64,000 bases of DNA, from assembly GCA_027596075.1 (NCBI GenBank), contig JADGJC010000063.1:96749-160748 (forward strand), given 5' to 3'. The position numbers and the translations under genes are program-made. The stretch's first letter is position 1, and each line of letters begins with the position of its first letter. The notes below the pieces were generated by a model that was not told the origin of the DNA, searched no databases, and saw nothing but the letters and a program-made list of their open reading frames with translations. The DNA is from Rhizophlyctis rosea. Taxonomy: Eukaryota; Chytridiomycota; Chytridiomycetes; Rhizophlyctidales; Rhizophlyctidaceae. Of the stretch, positions 2,736-50,736 are shown one piece after another.

Positions 2736-3613
2736 TGGCTTTGTGGGGATGGGCGACATGTGGAAGGGCGGGGAGTTGGGCGTGGTTTGAGGGGAGAGTC
2801 GCAATAGGGTGGGCGGTTTTTGCAGGGCGGTTGCCGGAAGCTGGATGGGCTCAGTGTATTGCTGGTTTGAGTAGTCTGTTTTCTCGTTTTGGCAAAGATT
2901 GCGTTTTGTAAATACCAGAAGTTGTTGTTGTTTTCTTGTCCTTTCTTATTGTGTTTTGGTATATGCGAGCTTTTTTTTCTGTTTCCTTTGATATGTGTCA
3001 AAAATTCTGGTTTTAGCTATTTGTGTGCATACGTCGCTCCGTTTTTGTAAAATAGTTTTTTTGTAGCTTGTGTTCCTGTCTTGTGCCGAGCTGCTTATTC
3101 TGTTTAATAGTACGTTGTGCCATTCTTGCTTTCTGTGAAAGAAGTGATATGGCGGTTCCGGAAGAGAAGGGTAGCTTTCCTTGAGAGATGCGATGAATGC
3201 GTGTCGCCCGATACTGCAGCTGTGCCCGTTTGGATGCGAAATTTGTCGAAGTGATGATGCGACGACCCCCGTGTCATTTTGAATACATATCTCCGAAGAT
3301 TCAGAGTTGAAGGTTACCTGCGTTTGACATGCGGCTGCATGCGGGGCTGCGTCAACCCTGAGTTTGGTTGTGGAGACATGCGAGTTAGAAAGCGCCCATT
3401 TCCAAACAGGAGCATTACACAAGTCAAACCAAAAGGACGACCATTGATTCGTCGTTGAAGGAATGGCACTGTACACTCAGGTATGCAGACTAACTATAAT
3501 TACATGAAAAAGTACAAGAAAATCAGTTCCTTCTCTATACAAAAAATCTATATATACATTACATATTCCCCACCCCTTCCCAGCAAACAAAACTCCTCAC
3601 ACCTTCCCCCACA
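2736..3613. other. Intergenic between convergent genes
   Basis: Lies between the 3' ends of the coiled-coil gene and the transporter on the other strand. T-rich after 2880, no recognised coding or RNA feature. Confidence 0.5.
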
Positions 3614-5234
3614 CTAAATCTTCCTCAACCCAATCCCATCCTCCTCATCATCCTCATCCTCCCCCTTAACCTTCTCAAACGCCACTCCCTTCCCACCAGC
3701 CTTCGCAACCGAAAATCCCACCACCCCACAAACAACAACAACAGTCGCCACCCCCTTCATCGGCGTAAAACACTGCATCCCATCCTCCCCACAAAACATC
3801 ACGTGGCTGAGTCCAAAGACCATTACTGCGCGCAGGGCTTGGAGGACGCCTGTTGCGACCGCGCCGGAGGTTTCGATTAGGTGGAAATAGGTTAAGTTAT
3901 GATATAACGAGGACAGGATCAGGATCAAATATCCCAGTAGGACGGAGGGGTCTGTTAAGGGCATTGCGAGGACGGTGTCGAGGGATATTGAGCAGATGAT
4001 GAGGGTTGTTAGGAGTGTGCAGGTTGTTCCGACGCTGATACAGAGGCGGCGTGGAGGAAGGGTTGTTGGGGATGTGGAGAGGTAGTGGTCGTTTAGGATG
4101 TAGACTATTGCGTAGATTGCGGTGCCGAGGAGGGTTAGGAGGAAGCCGAAGGGTTGGGTTTCTGGGTGGGCTGTGTGTTGTGTGTGTGGGTTAGTCGGTG
4201 TCCTTTGGGACTTTTATCTTGTACAGTATTCCTTCTTGCTCCTCTCCATGCCAGGAATGCTCCTCAATAACCCCCATCCTGTGGAAGTTCTGCCTCATCC
4301 CGCCTACAACCTCATTGGTCCATTTCGGTCGCTGTTACCACCCTCCTCCATGCTCTCCCTCGCGATCCGGCGCTTCTTCCTTGTGTTCCTTCCTCACCCC
4401 ATCCTTCAATCTCAACCATCCCGCCCACCCACCCTTTCACCTCAGGGTCGTCCCAAGGTATGATACTTACGTGTATGGTCAGATGCTCTCCGGGTGTTAC
4501 GTTCTGGGTGCTCCAAGGCGGTTAGAGACAGCCCTCCAGTGATTGCAAAAATGGCTACCCATTGACCCCATTTAAGTTTACGGCCCAGGAAGCATGTTGA
4601 CATGAGGGCCGTAAATACTATTACACTGGAGTAGATTACTTGGTATAACTACGGGTTTTTGATGCGCAGTTTTAGTCATTAGGCGGAAAAAATGCAAAAG
4701 CCAGGCCATGAGGACAGGAACTTACACCACTCCCAACGTAGAACATCCCCACCATGAGAATGATGTTTCCTAGTACATCTAATGTGGATATACCGAGGAT
4801 GTGTCGGAATCCTCGCTTTGGTTCGTTTGGGTCTGGTTTTTGATGCACGGTGTGTTTGTCGGATGGGAGACAGAAGACGGCTGCCATCCCCAGATATGTT
4901 GCCAGGACGGGTAACATTGATCTTGATTCTGGTTCATGAGACAGGGAAGAGATGATGAGGATGGATTCATGAAGAATGGGTCGTGATTTCCATGGGAAAC
5001 TCCTGAGTTTGTGACGACGAGCAGCAAGTACTCACCAGCAGCTCCCCTATAATGCAACCATTGTGATCCCAATGTTGATACCAGCCCAGTTGCCAGGAAT
5101 ATGACTTGTGACATGAGTATCTTCTTGTAGTCACTGGCTTTCTGTACCAATAATGGTACTCTCGGTTTGAAAGGTGACGACGGGCGTTCGAAGGCGTCGT
5201 CGAAGGACGTGCGGACGGGCGAGGAGGAGACCAT
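3614..5234 (-). CDS. Drug/metabolite-superfamily membrane transporter (SLC35F6-like)
   Basis: Exons on the minus strand: 5036-5234, 4726-4928, 4471-4648, 3614-4170, giving 378 residues in one frame. A short hydrophilic N-terminus is followed by about ten hydrophobic helices. Segments such as MSQVIFLATGLVSTLGSQWL, the GISTLDVLGNIILMVGMFYV helix and YSSVIVFTALMSTCFLGRKL with GQWVAI resemble the EamA/SLC35F6 group, in which a second-repeat ETSGAVATGVLQALRAV-type helix is also usual. The C-terminus is acidic (GEDEDDEEDG). Likely moves a nucleotide-sugar or small metabolite across an endomembrane; substrate cannot be told. The third intron could alternatively start 31 bases upstream in the same phase. 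Confidence 0.8.
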
Positions 5235-6312
5235 TTTTCTGTTATGGTCGTTCTTGTGAGTTGTTGGCGGAGCAGAGATTCAAAATGGTGGTCTGCCTAC
5301 TGACTAAGATCATGCGAGGTCTGTGTGGTGAGAAATGCGGAAAGCTGCAAGTTTGGCCTGAGGAAGAAGAGGGAATGAACACAAAGTAAAAAGTGTGGAG
5401 AGGTGAGTAAAGGAAGAGTGAGTTGTTCACACAGTTGCCCGACTGGGCCAAGAATCCAGATTGACAGTGATCATCAGGTTCCTCTTGGCAAAGTGCATCC
5501 TGTCACACGTGTGTGTCACGATGTCACAAGTGGCAAACTCGCCGGCCGCGCATCCTTCTACGCATTCCTGGCTCTATTGCATTCAGGACCCTGGCTGATG
5601 AGATCACTGATATATACAGGGTGACAGTTCAATGGATTTGGATATGAGAAAGTGCGCTTGACTAGAAAGTGCCCCAACATTGATAGCGTAGTGGCCGATG
5701 CGCTATCCCAGTTTTTTTTGCTAGCCCGAGGTCCCCGGTTCAATTCCCATTCGAGTCCTTCAATTGAAATTTTTGTTATGACTGTTTCCAAAGATTGTCG
5801 TCACTTTGCTGTCTGCTCGTACGAGTTCGGATATCGTCAGTATCTTGCTTAGCAACAATTGCCATGAAGTTCTGGCAGTACTACTTCCCAATGATAGGCA
5901 TTCGTGCTCTTCCAGTCCCGACCAAAGTCTTTCCACCTCCATACCAATCATAAATTCGTGCAATTGAGTCAGTGGCCTGTGGGTGCCATAACCGATTTTT
6001 TACTGCGGTCCGTCATCACCGAGCGATGAGCTGGCCAAGTGACCAATCCTATTGTTAGGTCAACGCCTCATTTCCTCTAATAGGCTCCTCGCCTAAAGCA
6101 GATATTTGAACCACAATGTACGCAACCTCATGTCACTGCAGAAATATGGTCAGTCTTACGCACAAAGGAACTAAGCAACATATCAACATTACTACTTATA
6201 TAAACACTGAAAAATCACAACACAAAAACATAAACAAATCATTGTACTGAAGCATAGAACGATGAGCACCACCAACACCGTTAAACTTTGGAACCTAAAT
6301 AGACTCCATCTC
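5235..6312. other. Intergenic with a tRNA-like relic
   Basis: No protein gene. Apart from the tRNA-like stretch near 5685-5755 nothing is recognised. Confidence 0.5.
5683..5756 (+). other. tRNA-like pol III box A/box B relic
   Basis: TAGCGTAGTGG fits the box A consensus and GGTTCAATTCC about 50 bases later fits box B. A four-pair D stem can be drawn, but the T stem does not pair (CCCGG against CCCAT) and no acceptor stem is found. It is therefore a decayed tRNA or tRNA-derived SINE rather than a working tRNA. Confidence 0.4.
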
Positions 6313-30053: not shown

Positions 30054-32325
30054 ATGGAACGGCACATTGAAGAAGCTTCATATTTTCCTCAAAGCATGAC
30101 GGAGAGCCCACAAGAGTTTGAAAAGGCAGACCTGGAAAATACCGGGAGTCTAGTTTTTCAACGCCCATCGCTTCCAGATGATATCGGTCACGATTCATCA
30201 CAAGTAATTGACCAGGCTATTGAATCTGAAGCATTCAAAGTTGGTTCAGGAGCTTCCGAGCTTGCTGCTACAGTTCCAATTAACGCCAGCCCAATCATTG
30301 AACGCAATGCTTCACGCGCCTTGCAGGCTGTGCAATTTTTGGAAGATTTCTTGATCACTGTGAGCCCCTGTCCAATTGAGGACGCAGAGTCGTACTTCGA
30401 CAGTTTGGACAGTCAATTCTGGGACACCAAAATACCGGATACACTCGTTTTCGAGAAGAAAGAAAGAACTCGGCAGCCTCTCACAATCTGGCAAGACATA
30501 GCTTCGGCACAGCAGAAGAGGATCAGATTCAGCCGAGCATTTCCCGAAGTTCCTCTTTTCGGTGTTCGTCTGTCGTACTTGACCAGTTTCATTAAGGAAT
30601 GCGGCGGCCGCGACAGACGATTAAACCTCACAACTGCAGAAGTTTGCGATAAATTTGTGAAGCATCAAGTCAAAGAGGAAAAGCAATCCTTCTGCCAGTA
30701 TTTACGACTGACCCTGCTGATTGATAAGGACAAAGCTACCGGTCACGCCCTCAAGGATACCGAAGCTTCCCCATTGGCCCATAAAGTGGATACAGCAACA
30801 TAGTTCATCAGTCACTCCTGGCAATACTGCTTCTTAGACGTCGTCGACGCCCTCACCATGTTCTTTGCAGAACAAGAAATCGATGACCCGGTCGTGTGGC
30901 TCGACCTCTTCTCTCTCCCACGACGCAACAGGGTAACAGTCGAGCCTCAATGGTTGACAAAAGTCTTCACCACAGCCATTTCCCGCATCAAAAACGTCCT
31001 CATGGTCTGCACACCATGGAACAAGCCAACCACCCCACCCGCGCTTGGTGCGTTTTCGAACTATACACCTGCGCCGCTACCGGGTCCAATTTCCAAATCG
31101 CCCTTCCACCCCACCAGTCAGAGGCGTTTCGACGCTCCCTCGCCTCAAACGTAGATGTGTTCTATAACGCCATAGCATCCATCAAATCAGAGAGCAGTAC
31201 TGCAACTGAGGTGAATGATCTAACGGCGATTCGGACGGCTATTAGGAGCACCGTTGGGTTTGCGGCGCTGGATCAAATGGTTTTCACCTTGTTGTTTGAT
31301 TGGATGGTGGGAAGGGTGCGGACGTTCATCCAAAAAGCGGGATCGGCGAGGGACGATCTGGAACAAGCCCGTTGACTGGGACGTTTGGGTGAGCTTTATC
31401 TCAAGCGGGGCTCGATTGATGAAGCAGAATGCTATATAGTTAAATGCCGGGATATTGTAGGGACGCTTGCTGGGGAAAGTGCGGACAGCATCGCTTGCTT
31501 GAGCACCTTTGGGGGCTTGAGGAGACAGCAAGGGAAGAAGGAAGAAGCGGAGGAGATCTTTCGGCAGTGCTGGGAGAAGGCAGTTCAAGTCCTCGGGCCT
31601 GATCATTCGGATACGCTTTCCTACATGCACCATCTGGCGACATCAATGGAAGGACAAGGACGATATGAAGAGGCGGAGCCTTTGTATGAGGAGTGTTGGA
31701 CCCTACGCAATCCTTGGCGTAGATCATGTAGATACCCTTATTGCTCATATTGACCTAGCCGGCGTACGTGAACGGACTGGAAATTGGGCGCAAGCTGAAA
31801 ACGAATTCCGGTACTGTTTGACGAAAGGGAGGCAAGTCTGTGGCGAAGATCATCCGCAGACACTGTTTCTGGTGGGGAAAGTCGCTGCGTTCTATAGAGC
31901 AAGGGGTCGGTTCAAGGAGGAGGAAGGGCTGCGGGTAGAATCATTGGAGCAAAGTAAGCGCGTCTTCGGTTCGGATCATCCGCAAACCATCAAAGCCATG
32001 ACGGGCCTTGCGTGGGTATACGATCGACTGGGTAACCACCGCCGGGCGCAAATGCTGTTCGAAGATTGCGTGGAACATCATACTCGCATCCATGGCAAAA
32101 CGCATCCCAACACCATCATCGATTAACAACTTGGCAACGTGTTACGAGCGGCAGGGCAAATACACTGAGGCGGGAATGCGGTATTTGGAGTGCGTCAAAC
32201 GGGCAAAGCGGGAGTTGGGAGAGGACGATCCGAGGACTCAACAGTATGTTAGTAGTTTAGTTAGGGTACGCAAAGGAGGAGGACGCGGTGCCAGGAAACA
32301 GGGAGGGCGAAAGAAACGGCGGTAA
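30054..32325 (+). pseudogene. Broken FISHSW-domain / tetratricopeptide-repeat (kinesin-light-chain-like) protein
   Basis: An intact N-terminal part runs 30054-30800 with LTTAEVCDKFVKHQVKEEKQ and SFCQYL, followed by an in-frame TAG at 30801-30803 directly before FISHSWQYCFLDVVDAL. This FISHxW block, then VVWLDLFS and (after a frame change near 31035) TRAWCVFELYTCAATGSNF, is a TIR-like signalling module often joined to TPRs. A second stop, TGA at 31373-31375, precedes LGRLGELYLKRGSIDEAE. TPR units then continue (EEAEEIFRQCWEKAVQVLGPDH, RYEEAEPLYEECW, RTGNWAQAENEF, GNHRRAQMLFEDC) with further frame changes near 31705 and 32115, ending in a basic tail. Two stops and three shifts in otherwise conserved sequence indicate a recent pseudogene; clustered sequencing error is the alternative. 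Confidence 0.8.
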
Positions 32326-43425: not shown

Positions 43426-43592
43426 CTTCCGAAGTGATACTTGGGCCTCGTTGCTTACCAGTGCCTTTTTGGCCTGGGACCATCACTTGTCCGGATCCTG
43501 TTCTGCGGTCGAGCCGGGTAATATGCGAATGCTGGTCGCGCAGTATGGGTTTGCAGCGTTGGGGAATAAGCCTTGGGTATGGCTTGTTATAT
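43426..43592 (+). repeat. 5S-like repeat, copy D
   Basis: Begins CTTCCGAAGTGATACTTGGG as copy A, then CCTCGTTGCTTACCAGTGCC, TTTTTGGCCTGGGACCATCA and ends GGAATAAGCCTTGGGTAT. Directly abuts copy E. Confidence 0.8.
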
Positions 43593-43800
43593 TCGGTTGG
43601 GTAGACAAGTTATGCCTGGGCCTCGTTGACTACTAGCGCCTTTTTGGGCTAGGACCTCTTGGTTGTCGGATCCCGCCCGTGTCGGCGGTCGAACCGGGGA
43701 CGGTGTGTGTACTGTGAGCTCGTGGTGTTAGATTGGCGGCAGGGAATAAGCCTTCGGTATTCGCGAGGAGGGGATCAGCTGTCACGTGCACCTCTCGTTT
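43593..43800 (+). repeat. 5S-like repeat, copy E
   Basis: Begins CGGTTGGGTAGAC, then GCCTGGGCCTCGTTGACTAC, TAGCGCCTTTTTGGGCTAGG, GCGGTCGAACCGGGGAC and TTGGCGGCAGGGAATAAGCC. Tandem to copy D with a period near 172 bases. Confidence 0.8.
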
Positions 43801-44393: not shown

Positions 44394-47300
44394 ATGGACG
44401 CTGAAAAATGCAAAATTGGCTCCCAGATCTATCACGTCATCACGGAACAAGCGGTATCTTACCTATTTGCTTGGATCACTGGCCAACCGAAAGTCATTAC
44501 GAGCGTGCTGCAGAAATTTGGAGAGGTCAGAAAGTGCGCTGAGAGCGTGACAGGTATGAAACGTCGAGGCTGGAATTCACATGATGAACGTCTCCTTACC
44601 TGACCTTATACTGCAACAGGAAACATCATCGAGACCAAAACTGGATTCAAATCAATTGATATGTCTCAGCATAACGATGGAGGCTCCTCAAAGGCTCGAA
44701 AGAAGCAGAAGCGCAAGCGAGATGATCAGGGTGCTACTACCCTTGAAGACAGCCCTGGTTCGGATAAAGAGAATGTGCATCCCGCAACAGCCTCGACAAG
44801 CGGGAATCCCCCGTCTGGAGAGCCCGCAATGAAATGTCATTCCCCCAGCTGCCTAGAATCTCGTCAACGCGCCGAGGATCTGCAGAAGGAATGTGCAAGG
44901 CTGAAGCGAGAAGCTGAGTTTTGGCGACGCTCTTTCGAGGATTTCATCAAGGACAACACGGGGATGGAGCAGGAAAACCGGCAGTTGCAACATCGGGTGG
45001 TGGAATTAAAGACTCTTGTGAAAGATCTGCAAGAGAGGTACCCAGTGCTGGAGCAGTTGCAAGCGCCGCAAGCGGAGGTGCAGGTCAAGGGAACACGCGA
45101 AGCTGCAGGACGCACGGATCCTCATGTGGAAGTGGAGGAAGAGGTCAGTTTTTTAATGGTGTAATGTTGTTTGTCCTCTTGCGAACTAACTGGATGTCGG
45201 TTGCCATTGCAGTTGCTGCAACCCGAAGTGGGGTTGGCGGACAAAGGGAAAGGTCCAGCTCAAGCCGATGCTCATGTAGAACTTGAGAAGCAGGTGAGTC
45301 GATGATTCAGGGTGATGCTGCATGCGTTTGCTGCCACTCCATCATTTGTCACTGACCTGTATAAACTTCTGTCCGTAATTGGCTCTTTTTCCCCAATATC
45401 CCCATTCTCTCTTACCTCCCAGCATTCTCAACTCTCCATCGAAACGGAAGTGCAAAGTGAACATTCATTTGTCTCTGACGCGGAAAAGCCAGCCTTTTGG
45501 GGATGGTTGCGACCCATGAAGAACTGCAAAGGTAGCCTGCTGTTCAAACCTTCCCCCAAGGCACACTAATGAGAATCGCCACAGGCCTGCCATACATATG
45601 CACCAAACCCAGTTGCCTCCATACATTCACCTTTCTGGAAGTTTTCCAGCTGCAAACAAGAGTTGTCACCTGTGGGGAGTGCAGAGTGGCCGGTCAATAC
45701 AAACAGGCGGAGCTTCCAACAAAATGCCACAACCCTGCCTGCAGCTTCAACATCACTCGTGAAAGATGGAATACCTCCACTATCGTGCCCATTACCTGTC
45801 CGGACTGCAACTCGCACAATGAGTATGACACCGACCGGCCCACGTTACTGCTTGCTAGCGAGAAGAGGGAATACGTTCTTGGATCTGATCCTACCCGTGC
45901 GGACATAGTCACCGCCGGCCACCGCATTGACAGTAAGGTAGCACAAGCCGTGATTCCACGCCTCTTGCAATCATTGACTCACGTGGACGTCGTCACCCCC
46001 GCCATCAAACTGTAGCACTGTCGTATATTCAGAATAAGTGGCAGGGCGTACATCAAGAATTTGTCTGAAAATGGAACGGTAAGCCGATTCGGACTTCAAG
46101 GTGATTGCAATAAAAATAACTCGACTGTCTTTGCATAAATCTTAGGATCACAATGGAATCAGAATGAAGAAAGGACAATCAAGCGAACTCTGGCCGTATG
46201 ATGATATTACCTTGGTGGCTGAGGAGGGTCTTCAGGCATACCGTGAGTACGTGCTAAATGGTAAAAATCTGCCAGGATCAACTAAGCCATTGATAGGTTT
46301 CGTATTCAAACCTGTGGATGATGCTGCGCCTGTGTTGAAGCATGTGGATGATGAGCCGAACACTGACCCTGATATCTTTCCACTTGACAACTCAAAGGTT
46401 CTGTTTTTAATGTCCATTGAAGTGCTTCGCTGAGTCTTGTACGCGTTTTAACCTCTGCCATGCAGATGTCGGGTGTTGTTCCCGACAAGGAAGAGGAAAC
46501 GCCATCACAATTCATGAACAACTTTCCCAAGCGCGAGATCGGTCACCACCAGCAGCTCAAAACAAGTCCTTCTCCGCGTGTTGGTCTCCAATTCGGCAGT
46601 ATGATCAACGATATTACGAAAGCTGGGCCAAGTCGTGAGCCAGCCCCGTCAAATGCTCTCATTACATGGGGAGATGTTCAAGCAGGGCCAAGTCGTGAGA
46701 CTGCTCTGTCAAATCGTTACATCACTTGGGGAGTACCACAACCTCCCAAAGAACCTTCTGGTCGCCCCGGTTTTCAATTCGGCATCGGCGGATTTGATAC
46801 TGGGCCAAACCTTGCGCCTGAGCCGCCGAATCCTTTCATTACACCGACAGAACTTCAAGGCCCCTCAAATGGAATAAGCGCAAGTGGAGGAAAAGATGGA
46901 GATGAGTTTGAAGTCGCTGGCAAATACATCGTGAAACAGGTTCTTGGACGGTACGGTATTTGAAATTGCATTTGCCGCTCCACTGTTGCTTTGTGATTGA
47001 GATCCGTTTCAAGGGCAGTTTCTCCGAAGTCCGGCTTGCTGTCGATAAGGAAAGTGGTCGCACGTACGCTATGAAGATCATTGGCAAGTCAAAATGATAT
47101 CTTGCCCTTGTACCAAACATGTGACGGTTCAAGCAGATAAACGCAAACTCCTCATGGACTTCAAGTCGCGCATGGCACTGGAGCGTGAGGTACAGTTCCA
47201 CTGCTGTCATGCTGTGTCGTCAATGTCGACAGGCCTAAGGATTCAAATCTCATCAGGTCGATATCATGCAAACGCTGAGACAGGTTCCACATGTAAGGCT

Positions 47301-48362
47301 CAGTGTGGGATGCGATGACCCTATCCGCAACTAAAACACCATTTTAAAGGACAATGTGCTTCATATGAAAGAGGTCATAGAGGAGACCGACAGACGCTGC
47401 TTGGTCTTGGAATACATGGGCGGGGGGAGTTTGATGGACTACGTGCACCGGAAGCGTGGCTTGAATGAAAGCAAAGCGCGGGTGTGCTTTTTGCAAATGG
47501 TGGGTTATCCTGAATTTCATATGGCACCGTCATGATCCATTGATATCTAATCCACTGTCGCATCTCATTGGCACCTGTCAGCTCTTGGGTGTGCAGGTAT
47601 GGAGCTGTACAGGGTGAACCCGGGCATGGGCATTAAGTGTACTTACGTCCCATTTGGAAAACAGCGTCTCCATAGTCTGAAGATCGTGCATCGCGGTAAG
47701 GCGTCTCTATCACAAAATTGAATGAAAGAACATTTGTTGACAGCTCTCTATACGCTCGTTGCAGATATCAAGCCTTAAAACTTCCTTCTGACTGAATGGG
47801 GACAAGTCAAGCTTGCAGACTTTGGGTACGACACCGCTTCCGCAAACTGATATTTCATGAGATGTATTCAAGCAATCATCTAGAGTGGCAAAAATACCCG
47901 GTGAGGGAGGACTGAGGAGCTTCTGCGGTGAGACATTCCCAATTCAGACAAAGTTTTGCATGTCATTGATGTAACTTGCGACAGGCACACCCGCATACAT
48001 GGCACCGGAGGTCATGTCAAATCGCGATGCTTACAGAAATGTTTATGATACCCAAGTTGATATGTACGGTCTTGGCGCTACATTGTATTTCATGATATCG
48101 GGGACGGACCCATTCGATGGAAATGATGCCGATGCTCGGGAGAAGATTCTGAGGGGCATTGTGAGTTGGGACTCACAAGTTTGGAACGACAAACCAGCCG
48201 GTAGGTTTAGTTTGTGTGATAACTGGCGTGTACGTGGCGACTGATCATGTATGTCCATCATCCATAGTCGTGGATTTCATCCAGAAGTTGATGATGGTTG
48301 ATCCTCGATTGCGCTGGAGAATGGATCAGATAGGGTCTCACCCTTGGATAAGAGGATTTTGA
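44394..48362 (+). CDS. Coiled coil + zinc-ribbon-like + FHA + Ser/Thr kinase (Chk2/Rad53-like), with in-frame TAA
   Basis: Eighteen exons join in one frame of 931 codons: 44394-44553, 44620-45143, 45213-45293, 45423-45531, 45585-45937, 46016-46078, 46146-46397, 46466-46950, 47019-47083, 47137-47189, 47257-47292, 47350-47499, 47582-47596, 47665-47695, 47765-47825, 47884-47927, 47985-48200, 48268-48362. Order: basic segment, coiled coil (residues about 140-230), Cys pairs CGEC, CHNPAC, CPDC, an FHA domain (EYVLGSDP, HRIDSKHCRIFR, YIKNLSENGT with HNGIRM), a low-complexity linker with AGPSREP repeats, then a kinase (YAMKII, LVLEYMGGGSLMDYV, KIVHRDIKP, VKLADFG, CGTPAYMAPEVM, SHPWIRGF). FHA plus kinase suggests a DNA-damage checkpoint role. 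TAA at 47776-47778 replaces the residue before the catalytic-loop Asn. The Gly-rich loop join at 46950/47019 loses one or two expected residues. Confidence 0.75.
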
Positions 48363-49279: not shown

Positions 49280-50736
49280 ATGAGGCTCTTACCAATTGCT
49301 TTCACAGCACTCTCGGCGACGCTCGTGTCGGCCGGTATGGAACGATTAGTTTCGCAACCAAAGATCAAAATCATCTCATCAATCTGGCCGTGCAGCATAT
49401 CCAAATCCTCAAGCAGTCAGTGGCTCAACCAATGTCCACGACCCAACACTGGCAAAGAATGGAAACACCTACTACCTGCTGGCAACAGCGCCTGGCATCT
49501 CCATCAAGACTTCGACCGATATGAAGACTTGGAAGGACGCTGGCTTGGTATGTACAGTCGATTTTTTTGAAGATTAGATCTTTGCGGAGTTTCATCATTC
49601 ATGTGGTGTCTCACAGGTCTGGCCAAACGGTCAAGCAACCTGGACCGACACCTATACCAAGACCTCGAACGGCAACCTCTGGGCTCCCGACCTCTCCTAC
49701 CGCAATGGTCAATTCTACCTCTATTACGCCGCTTCCTCCTTCGGTAGCAGCACCTCCGCCATCTACCTCGCCACTTCCTCTTCAGGCGCTCAAGGCACAT
49801 GGTCAAACAAAGGCATCGTCACCTCCTCCACCTCCTCCTCCAACTACAACGCAATCGACCCCAACCTCTTCGTTGATTCCGACGGCAAATGGTGGATGAC
49901 TTTCGGGTCCTTCTGGAGCGGTATCAAGCAGATTAGGTTGGATCCTAGCACCGGGATGGCGTACAGCGCGGATAAGACGGTTCGGAGTCTGGCGAGTCGG
50001 ACTGTAAATGATCGGGCTATCGAGGCGCCAGTCATTTACAAGAGGGGGAGCTGGTATTACCTCATTGTGTCGTTCGACAAGTGCTGTCAAGGCGCTAGCA
50101 GTACCTACCGTATCATGGTAGGGAGGTCGAGCTCTGTAAACGGACCGTTCACTGATAAGAGTGGTGTTGCTATGACAAGTGGTGGAGGGACAGAAATCTT
50201 GGGTAAACACGTTTGTTTATTTACATCACGTGGCGTCATTTGTTTACTAACATTCTGGACAGCTGGTCATGGAAGCTACCATGGTCCTGGAGGACAATCT
50301 GTCTACACGGAAGGGGGAGTCGACTACCTGGTATATCATTACTACGACGACGCCGGCACGGCAAAGCTGGGCATCAACCAATTGACGTATGATTCTGCTG
50401 GCTGGCCAGTCGTCTCGTCGTCTGCTGGGGGTTCTACACCTACCACCACTACTACCAAAGCGGCTACTACGACCAAAGCATCCACGACCAGCAGTGGAAG
50501 TGGAGGGAGCTGCGCACCAATCTACGGTCAATGCGGTAAGCATCTTCCAACGTACCACCTGGTTTGCACCATACTAATTGACGGGTCAAGGTGGTTCTGG
50601 ATTTACTGGCCCTACGTGCTGCACTGGATCAACATGCAAGGTGTCCAACCAATGGGTATGTACTCATGACGCTTTGAACAAAGCATTGTCAAATTCTAAC
50701 AACATATTCGATGCGTAGTATTCCCAATGCCTGTAA
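49280..50736 (+). CDS. Secreted GH43 arabinanase-type glycosidase with C-terminal CBM1
   Basis: Six exons: 49280-49334, 49396-49547, 49617-50202, 50263-50535, 50591-50655, 50719-50736; 382 residues. Signal peptide MRLLPIAFTALSATLVSA. Five-bladed propeller of the endo-1,5-alpha-L-arabinanase type with all three catalytic acids in their usual contexts: NVHDPTLAKNG (base), NAIDPNLFVDSDGKWWM (pKa modulator) and AIEAPVIYKRG (acid). A Thr/Ser-rich linker leads to a CBM1 of the form CAPIYGQCGGSGFTGPTCC ... YSQCL, whose four disulfide cysteines are present. The enzyme would cut arabinan side chains of pectin while held on cellulose. The last exon codes only five residues. Pairs in function with the esterase at 57258-59083. 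Confidence 0.94.

Follow-up and report, generated by a model that had tools for sequence, protein, structure and literature searches.

The forward-strand gene at positions 44394 to 48362 of the window (the whole 64,000-nucleotide stretch of Rhizophlyctis rosea DNA that was analysed) is best explained as a decayed duplicate of a Chk2-type checkpoint kinase gene, with a tandem zinc-ribbon-like pair nested in its FHA domain, which would now be a pseudogene or the source of a kinase-less product. This reading as a whole was given a probability of roughly 0.6; it overlaps with two of the alternatives weighed below, a live kinase-less protein and a pair of adjacent genes, and the likelihoods assigned to the readings do not sum to one. 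The host is a soil chytrid placed in the Rhizophlyctidales (Chytridiomycota), and is saprobic.

Gene structure and the published gene model

A motif-by-motif reading, followed by spliced alignment, resolved the gene into 19 exons. The start and end given by an earlier sequence-only reading, which had counted 18 exons, were borne out by the spliced alignment, and the linear order that it had described (basic segment, Cys-rich block, FHA domain and kinase) was recovered with Pfam and the gene model. The same gene is annotated in GenBank as HDV00_010600 (P0001), a protein of 508 amino acids and the only one matched by the Cys-FHA part in the protein search; in the search that yielded the chytrid FHA-kinases P0004 and P0006, no other protein named as from R. 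rosea was found among the 120 matches listed, many of which carried no name. The published exons were traced to our exons 1-3 (44394-44553, 44620-45143 and 45213-45293), a mini-exon at 45909-45937, and then 46163 onward. P0001 was identical to our model in 255 of 255 residues over aa 1-255, and 223 of 243 aligned columns matched over the later linker, with an 18-residue gap. It reads through 46243-46296, an intron in the present model, and its C-terminus VLGRYGI corresponds to read-through past the donor at 46951. As a consequence of this exon choice and read-through, P0001 lacks the Cys block, half of the FHA domain and the kinase, and the published gene model conceals the Cys block-FHA-kinase arrangement.

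Exons 1-3 (aa 1-255), supported by the identity with P0001 and by the splice scores, encode a basic segment at aa ~78-87 and a coiled coil at aa ~133-216; the latter, described earlier as long, is probable, since families of coiled-coil proteins matched it weakly (best E 0.0044, short of the family cut-off). The N-terminal extension also contains a CHSPSC knuckle (aa 126-131; 44835-44852), which resembles the CHNPAC and CTKPSC of the Cys block (BLAST E 0.16). No paralogue of the region of exons 1-3 was found in the R. rosea genome.

Splice-site scores were built on 25 supported introns, 15 from C90 (the canonical copy, on the contig of that name in the same genome, described below) and 10 from the window gene, leaving out the GC-AG and glycine-loop introns of the window gene and, in C90, a weak GC intron (3849-3906). 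Ranked against all GT/AG sites in the window, introns 1-3, which have no homology behind them, had donors at the 99th percentile and acceptors between the 88th and the 95th. The linker introns 46243-46296 and 46398-46465 were weaker, with donors at the 78th and 84th percentiles and scores of 2.8 and 3.5, against a supported minimum of 3.8. The first of them, 54 bases long and in frame whether spliced or not, may be coding, since the FHA alignment with the chytrid protein P0006 also reads through it. Exons 1-9 are open over 657 codons, and the model frame scored best for codon usage in 17 of the 19 exons, after training on 11 long frames from R. rosea, some of them not certain to be coding.

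Other features were observed around the gene. Upstream, at 43432-43656, there are two copies of a 50-base direct repeat, 82% alike and 175 bases apart. Downstream, a frame at 49578-50669 encodes a GH43 glycosyl hydrolase (Pfam 3.6e-39), the end of which looks by eye like the start of a CBM1. Elsewhere in the window, a TPR frame of the TPR_12/TPR_10 type at 31521-32126 is likely part of a larger gene.

Relationship to chytrid Chk2-type kinases

A kinase tree of 13 rows placed the window gene together with C90, P0004 from Irineochytrium and P0006 from Blyttiomyces (named Checkpoint kinase 2) at a support of 97/94, in a chytrid group whose internal order forms an open fork. Its branch was 3.7 times as long as that of C90 (1.12 vs 0.30). 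The four FHA-kinases of other fungi were not united with the chytrid group at any good support: P0014 and P0063 had 48/9, and P0007 and P0012 fell beside DCLK3 (81/87). Kinase identity to the window gene was 47% for C90, 43% for P0006 and 40% for P0004, and 33-37% for nine others. The best match among solved structures was CaMK1D (5.7e-44), ahead of CHK2 (9.3e-42) and RAD53 (1.7e-41), so that the Chk2 label derives from the chytrid relatives, the FHA domain and the introns.

The C90 gene (C90:96000-103500, at about 3250-5530 within it) was aligned over its FHA domain and kinase, with 16 introns and neither a stop nor a frameshift; a candidate start ATG lies about 28 residues before FHA strand 1, and a further FHA match was seen downstream of the kinase. 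Kinase introns of the window gene were placed by spliced alignment with the chytrid FHA-kinases P0006 and P0004. With P0006 as the query, with which the comparison to C90 was made, each of the nine introns placed had a C90 counterpart at the matching query position and in the matching phase; for two of them, the script's donors (47284 and 48210) lay nine bases off the preferred ones (47293 and 48201). With P0004, seven of eight placed introns were the same as in the P0006 run, and the eighth skips a 5-residue mini-exon. In the FHA domain, two phase-0 introns coincided with those of C90, and the phase-1 intron that follows strand 1 lay within one residue; C90 has one extra FHA intron, and past the FHA domain the two genes differ in their introns.

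The window gene shares with these relatives the order of FHA domain then kinase, and with C90 and P0006 the WGxLxP strand 1. Unlike it, C90, P0004 and P0006 have no Cys block in their aligned parts, carry the pocket Arg and first Ser, and have an open kinase; P0004 and P0006 also lack the long N-terminus and, by eye, have further FHA domains after the kinase. A Chk2-like FHA-kinase origin is indicated by the tree, the introns and the domain order, by which the window kinase is a divergent, fast-changing Chk2 paralogue, a second copy beside C90. Several Chk2/Rad53 homologues per species are known, Dictyostelium having five (PMC3637376).

Two further loci were considered as relatives and rejected: C624 reads by eye as a MAP3K-type kinase, and C258 (8500-14500) is an FHA and RING gene, which resembles CHFR. 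In the open-licence literature, a search for an FHA kinase with zinc gave no paper, and, by title, none of the papers listed in further searches concerned chytrid Chk2 duplicates.

A cysteine block within the FHA domain

The FHA domain precedes the kinase and matched Pfam above its cut-off (E 3.2e-8, aa 388-453). Its strand 1, FWGWLRPM (45495-45518), lies in exon 4 (45423-45531, aa 256-292), as supported by the alignment and the window test described below, and aligned with WWGKLVPL in C90 and FWGRLIPM in P0006; among seven aligned relatives, W-G or W-A was found in five (C90, P0006, P0007, P0014 and P0063), P0012 has F-A, and P0004 begins after strand 1. Exon 4 is followed by the phase-1 intron (45532-45584; donor at the 90th and acceptor at the 95th percentile), which the C90 gene also has. 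The next exon (45585-45937) opens with the Cys block (45587-45844, aa 293-378) and runs through EKREYVLGS into strand 2 (YVLGS), the FHA domain from strand 2 onward occupying 45845-46397 (the rest of that exon, then 46016-46078, 46146-46242 and 46297-46397).

The sequence-only reading had counted three Cys pairs; the block has four (CTKPSC-x18-CGEC-x14-CHNPAC-x18-CPDC), which form two equal units C-x4-C-x18-C-x2-C. With the spacing 4-18-2-14-4-18-2, two equal quadruplets arose in 83 of 1,000,000 random placements of eight Cys. Beyond the Cys themselves, the likeness of the two units was not significant (p 0.085), and by codon usage the block's own frame was not preferred (-0.04 vs 0.08 in another frame). 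Profile searches, which had been proposed as a check and which returned FHA and Pkinase from Pfam, yielded no family above cut-off for the block in Pfam, NCBIfam or the PDB. The Ogr/Delta-like zinc finger (PF04606) matched it as a fragment (E 1e-4; 22.6 bits, below the cut-off of 26.3), and the best PDB match was C2H2-like, in REF6 (E 0.084). A structure prediction had likewise been proposed, and a single-sequence model of the Cys exon was of no use (pLDDT 32). The block has paired Cys knuckles, a feature of zinc ribbons, and shares the C-x-N-P-x-C knuckle with the Ogr/Delta-like finger, from which it differs in its two tandem units; it is a predicted zinc binder, best described as a tandem zinc-ribbon-like pair.

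No second copy of the block was found in the R. rosea genome, where, among the best candidates scored, its own locus was followed by matches at E 0.31 and 3.24. In a set of 5.8 billion proteins, 295 candidates led only to P0001, itself without the block, and a further search of that set, with 10 candidates, gave no match. These results are consistent with the earlier claim that the arrangement is lineage-specific, within the reach of searches that depend on shared exact short words and could miss distant relatives.

The Cys block had been placed before the FHA domain; profile scores place it inside. With an FHA profile made from the seven relatives, the best-domain score rose from 51.0 bits with the block to 60.5 without it, and the full-sequence score from 53.2 to 60.6. 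As a control, 361 windows of 18 residues from before the FHA core were each joined to it: the eight with the highest scores (56.3 to 62.7 bits) begin at aa 272-279 and cover FWGWLRPM (aa 280), whereas the best unrelated window reached 56.2 bits and the median was 52.2. In P0007, too, the loop between strands 1 and 2 is longer, at about 30 residues, indicating that this site tolerates insertion. The FHA alignment with P0006, a query without the block, consequently passed over it through two introns whose splice sites are poor (45532-45765 and 45785-45858). Between 45686 and 45860 the donor at 45532 has no in-phase acceptor, and skipping the block in frame via other donors either costs strand 1, wholly or partly, or needs read-through past 45532. 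These comparisons locate the block within the FHA domain, in the strand 1-2 loop, at a conserved intron.

The FHA domain also differs in its phosphate pocket. In Rad53 FHA1, the phosphate contacts are Arg70, Ser85, Asn86 and Thr106, and an Arg70Ala variant is unable to bind phosphorylated targets (PMC5041073). By sequence the window FHA is similar to Rad53 FHA1 (PDB 1g6g) and keeps the N107-G108-T motif, whereas it has an 86-residue insertion after strand 1 and S, D, S and E at the four contacts (0/4 kept), where C90 has R, S, N and T (4/4); the direct Rad53 match is a weak one (E 0.099), but an eight-row alignment agrees with it. In the latter, seven of seven relatives have the Arg and the first Ser, both of them absent from the window gene, whose FHA domain has thus probably lost phosphothreonine-peptide binding. 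Kinases of the Chk2/Cds1/Rad53 type carry an SQ/TQ cluster before the FHA domain; such a cluster is absent here, the stretch up to strand 1 (aa 280) having three SQ (aa 10, 69 and 257) but not a single TQ.

Kinase defects and alternative explanations

Exon 9 (46466-46950) contains the linker and the start of the kinase, and ends in a glycine-loop codon at the donor 46951 (99th percentile, phase 2). In C90 a phase-2 intron lies within LG-RG of the glycine loop, by eye at the same place and phase. For the intron of the window gene (46951-47018), the acceptor that scores better, 47013 (74th percentile), lies in the wrong phase, and the one in phase, 47018 (37th percentile), gives VLGR-FSEV and removes the Gly-Ser of the loop; a weaker splice pair, 46940/47001, gives KQIRFKGSFSEV. 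The kinase continues through ten exons (47019-47083, 47137-47189, 47257-47292, 47350-47499, 47582-47596, 47665-47695, 47765-47825, 47884-47927, 47985-48200 and 48268-48362), the first two separated by a GC-AG intron (47084-47136, GCAAGT...GCAG) that was found with both queries at a place shared with C90. The read-through protein, with X at the stop, matched Pfam Pkinase at aa 657-910 (E 1.7e-59). An in-frame TAA (47776-47778, aa 779), seen by reading and in both kinase spliced alignments, interrupts the catalytic loop right after HRDIKP; among single-intron splicings tried across 47665-47825, ten were in frame and open, and all ten drop the HRDIKP..N loop. An uninterrupted kinase domain with intact catalytic and glycine loops is not encoded in the present assembly. 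The claim that all pieces join in one frame fails at this stop and at the glycine-loop intron, which has no good in-phase acceptor, and the sensor-effector fusion once suggested presumes a working kinase, at odds with the catalytic-loop stop, the mis-phased glycine loop and the change of four of four FHA contacts.

All seven further residues of the kinase signature that were looked for (Lys of YAMK, aC Glu, HRD, DFG, APE, aF Asp and aI Arg) are kept, suggesting that a working kinase was under selection until recently. The kinase loss therefore looks recent, and the FHA change must be older than it or functional. Several observations speak against the preferred reading: these seven motifs, the open exons 1-9, the one intron in eight of the P0004 run that differs, the failure of the FHA-kinases of other fungi to form one clade with the chytrid ones, CaMK1D as the best structure match, and the useless model of a block whose zinc binding is a prediction.

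The alternatives are taken in decreasing order of likelihood. The first, which we consider unlikely, is a live kinase-less protein that ends in or before the kinase like the VLGRYGI model of GenBank, and serves as a scaffold or decoy made of the coiled coil and the zinc-FHA part. The 657 open codons before the kinase, the end of the GenBank model and the location of both defects in the kinase (chance about 0.08 for two lesions uniform over 912 codons) agree with it; however, that model omits the Cys block and half of the FHA domain, and a scaffold would not need kinase motifs so well kept. Also doubtful is a live gene in a wrong assembly, in which the stop and the glycine-loop phase are sequencing errors and a full-length active kinase carries the zinc block in its FHA domain. 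Since the seven catalytic residues are retained, sequencing error keeps some plausibility, both defects being small and exons 1-9 open, but two separate defects fall in about 256 kinase codons and none was found in C90 by the same method, and four substitutions of FHA phosphate contacts are unlikely as sequencing errors. It is rather improbable that the twin zinc ribbon, nested by way of the old intron, turned a phosphothreonine reader to another use by taking over ligand recognition, freeing the phosphate pocket to change, and that a kinase-less zinc-FHA scaffold, now or recently, opposes or redirects the canonical Chk2.

Less likely still, whatever the fate of the kinase, exons 1-3 would be a small coiled-coil gene and the FHA-kinase gene would start near exon 4. 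Read past its donor, exon 3 runs into a stop at 45303-45305, an ATG at 45315 is in frame upstream of exon 4, C90 has its candidate start ATG about 28 residues before strand 1, and intron 3 has 129 bases, compared with 53-85 in the 25 supported introns; nevertheless, its donor (99th percentile) and acceptor (88th) join in frame, and the GenBank model likewise joins exons 1-3 to the FHA half. A pseudokinase made by splicing is very improbable: an intron at 47696 with the acceptor 47806 restores an open frame (HR-VKLADFG) but removes about 14 residues of the core loop, an in-phase AG among the several there is probably due to chance, and the glycine loop still fails.

Under the preferred reading of a decayed duplicate, the shared introns and the tree show the duplication of a chytrid Chk2/Cds1-type gene, whose ancestor was presumably a working Chk2-like kinase, recruited through its FHA domain and activated near its partners. 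After duplication, the window copy gained its long N-terminal extension and, probably through the old phase-1 intron, the tandem zinc-ribbon-like block that sits between FHA strands 1 and 2; it evolved fast and lost the phosphothreonine-contact residues, as the alignment shows, probably together with the corresponding binding. In the present assembly it has also lost an uninterrupted kinase domain, and kinase activity in the organism is probably absent. The present locus most likely has no active kinase, and would be a recent pseudogene or at most encode a kinase-less coiled-coil and zinc-FHA protein, leaving the canonical C90 copy to carry the checkpoint function. The locus offers a clear example of a cysteine module set into an FHA domain, exactly where a conserved intron lies, within a duplicate of a checkpoint-type kinase whose phosphate pocket then changed and whose open kinase frame was lost. 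If its product is live, it would show the re-purposing of a checkpoint reader; if the gene is dead, it records the steps of loss.
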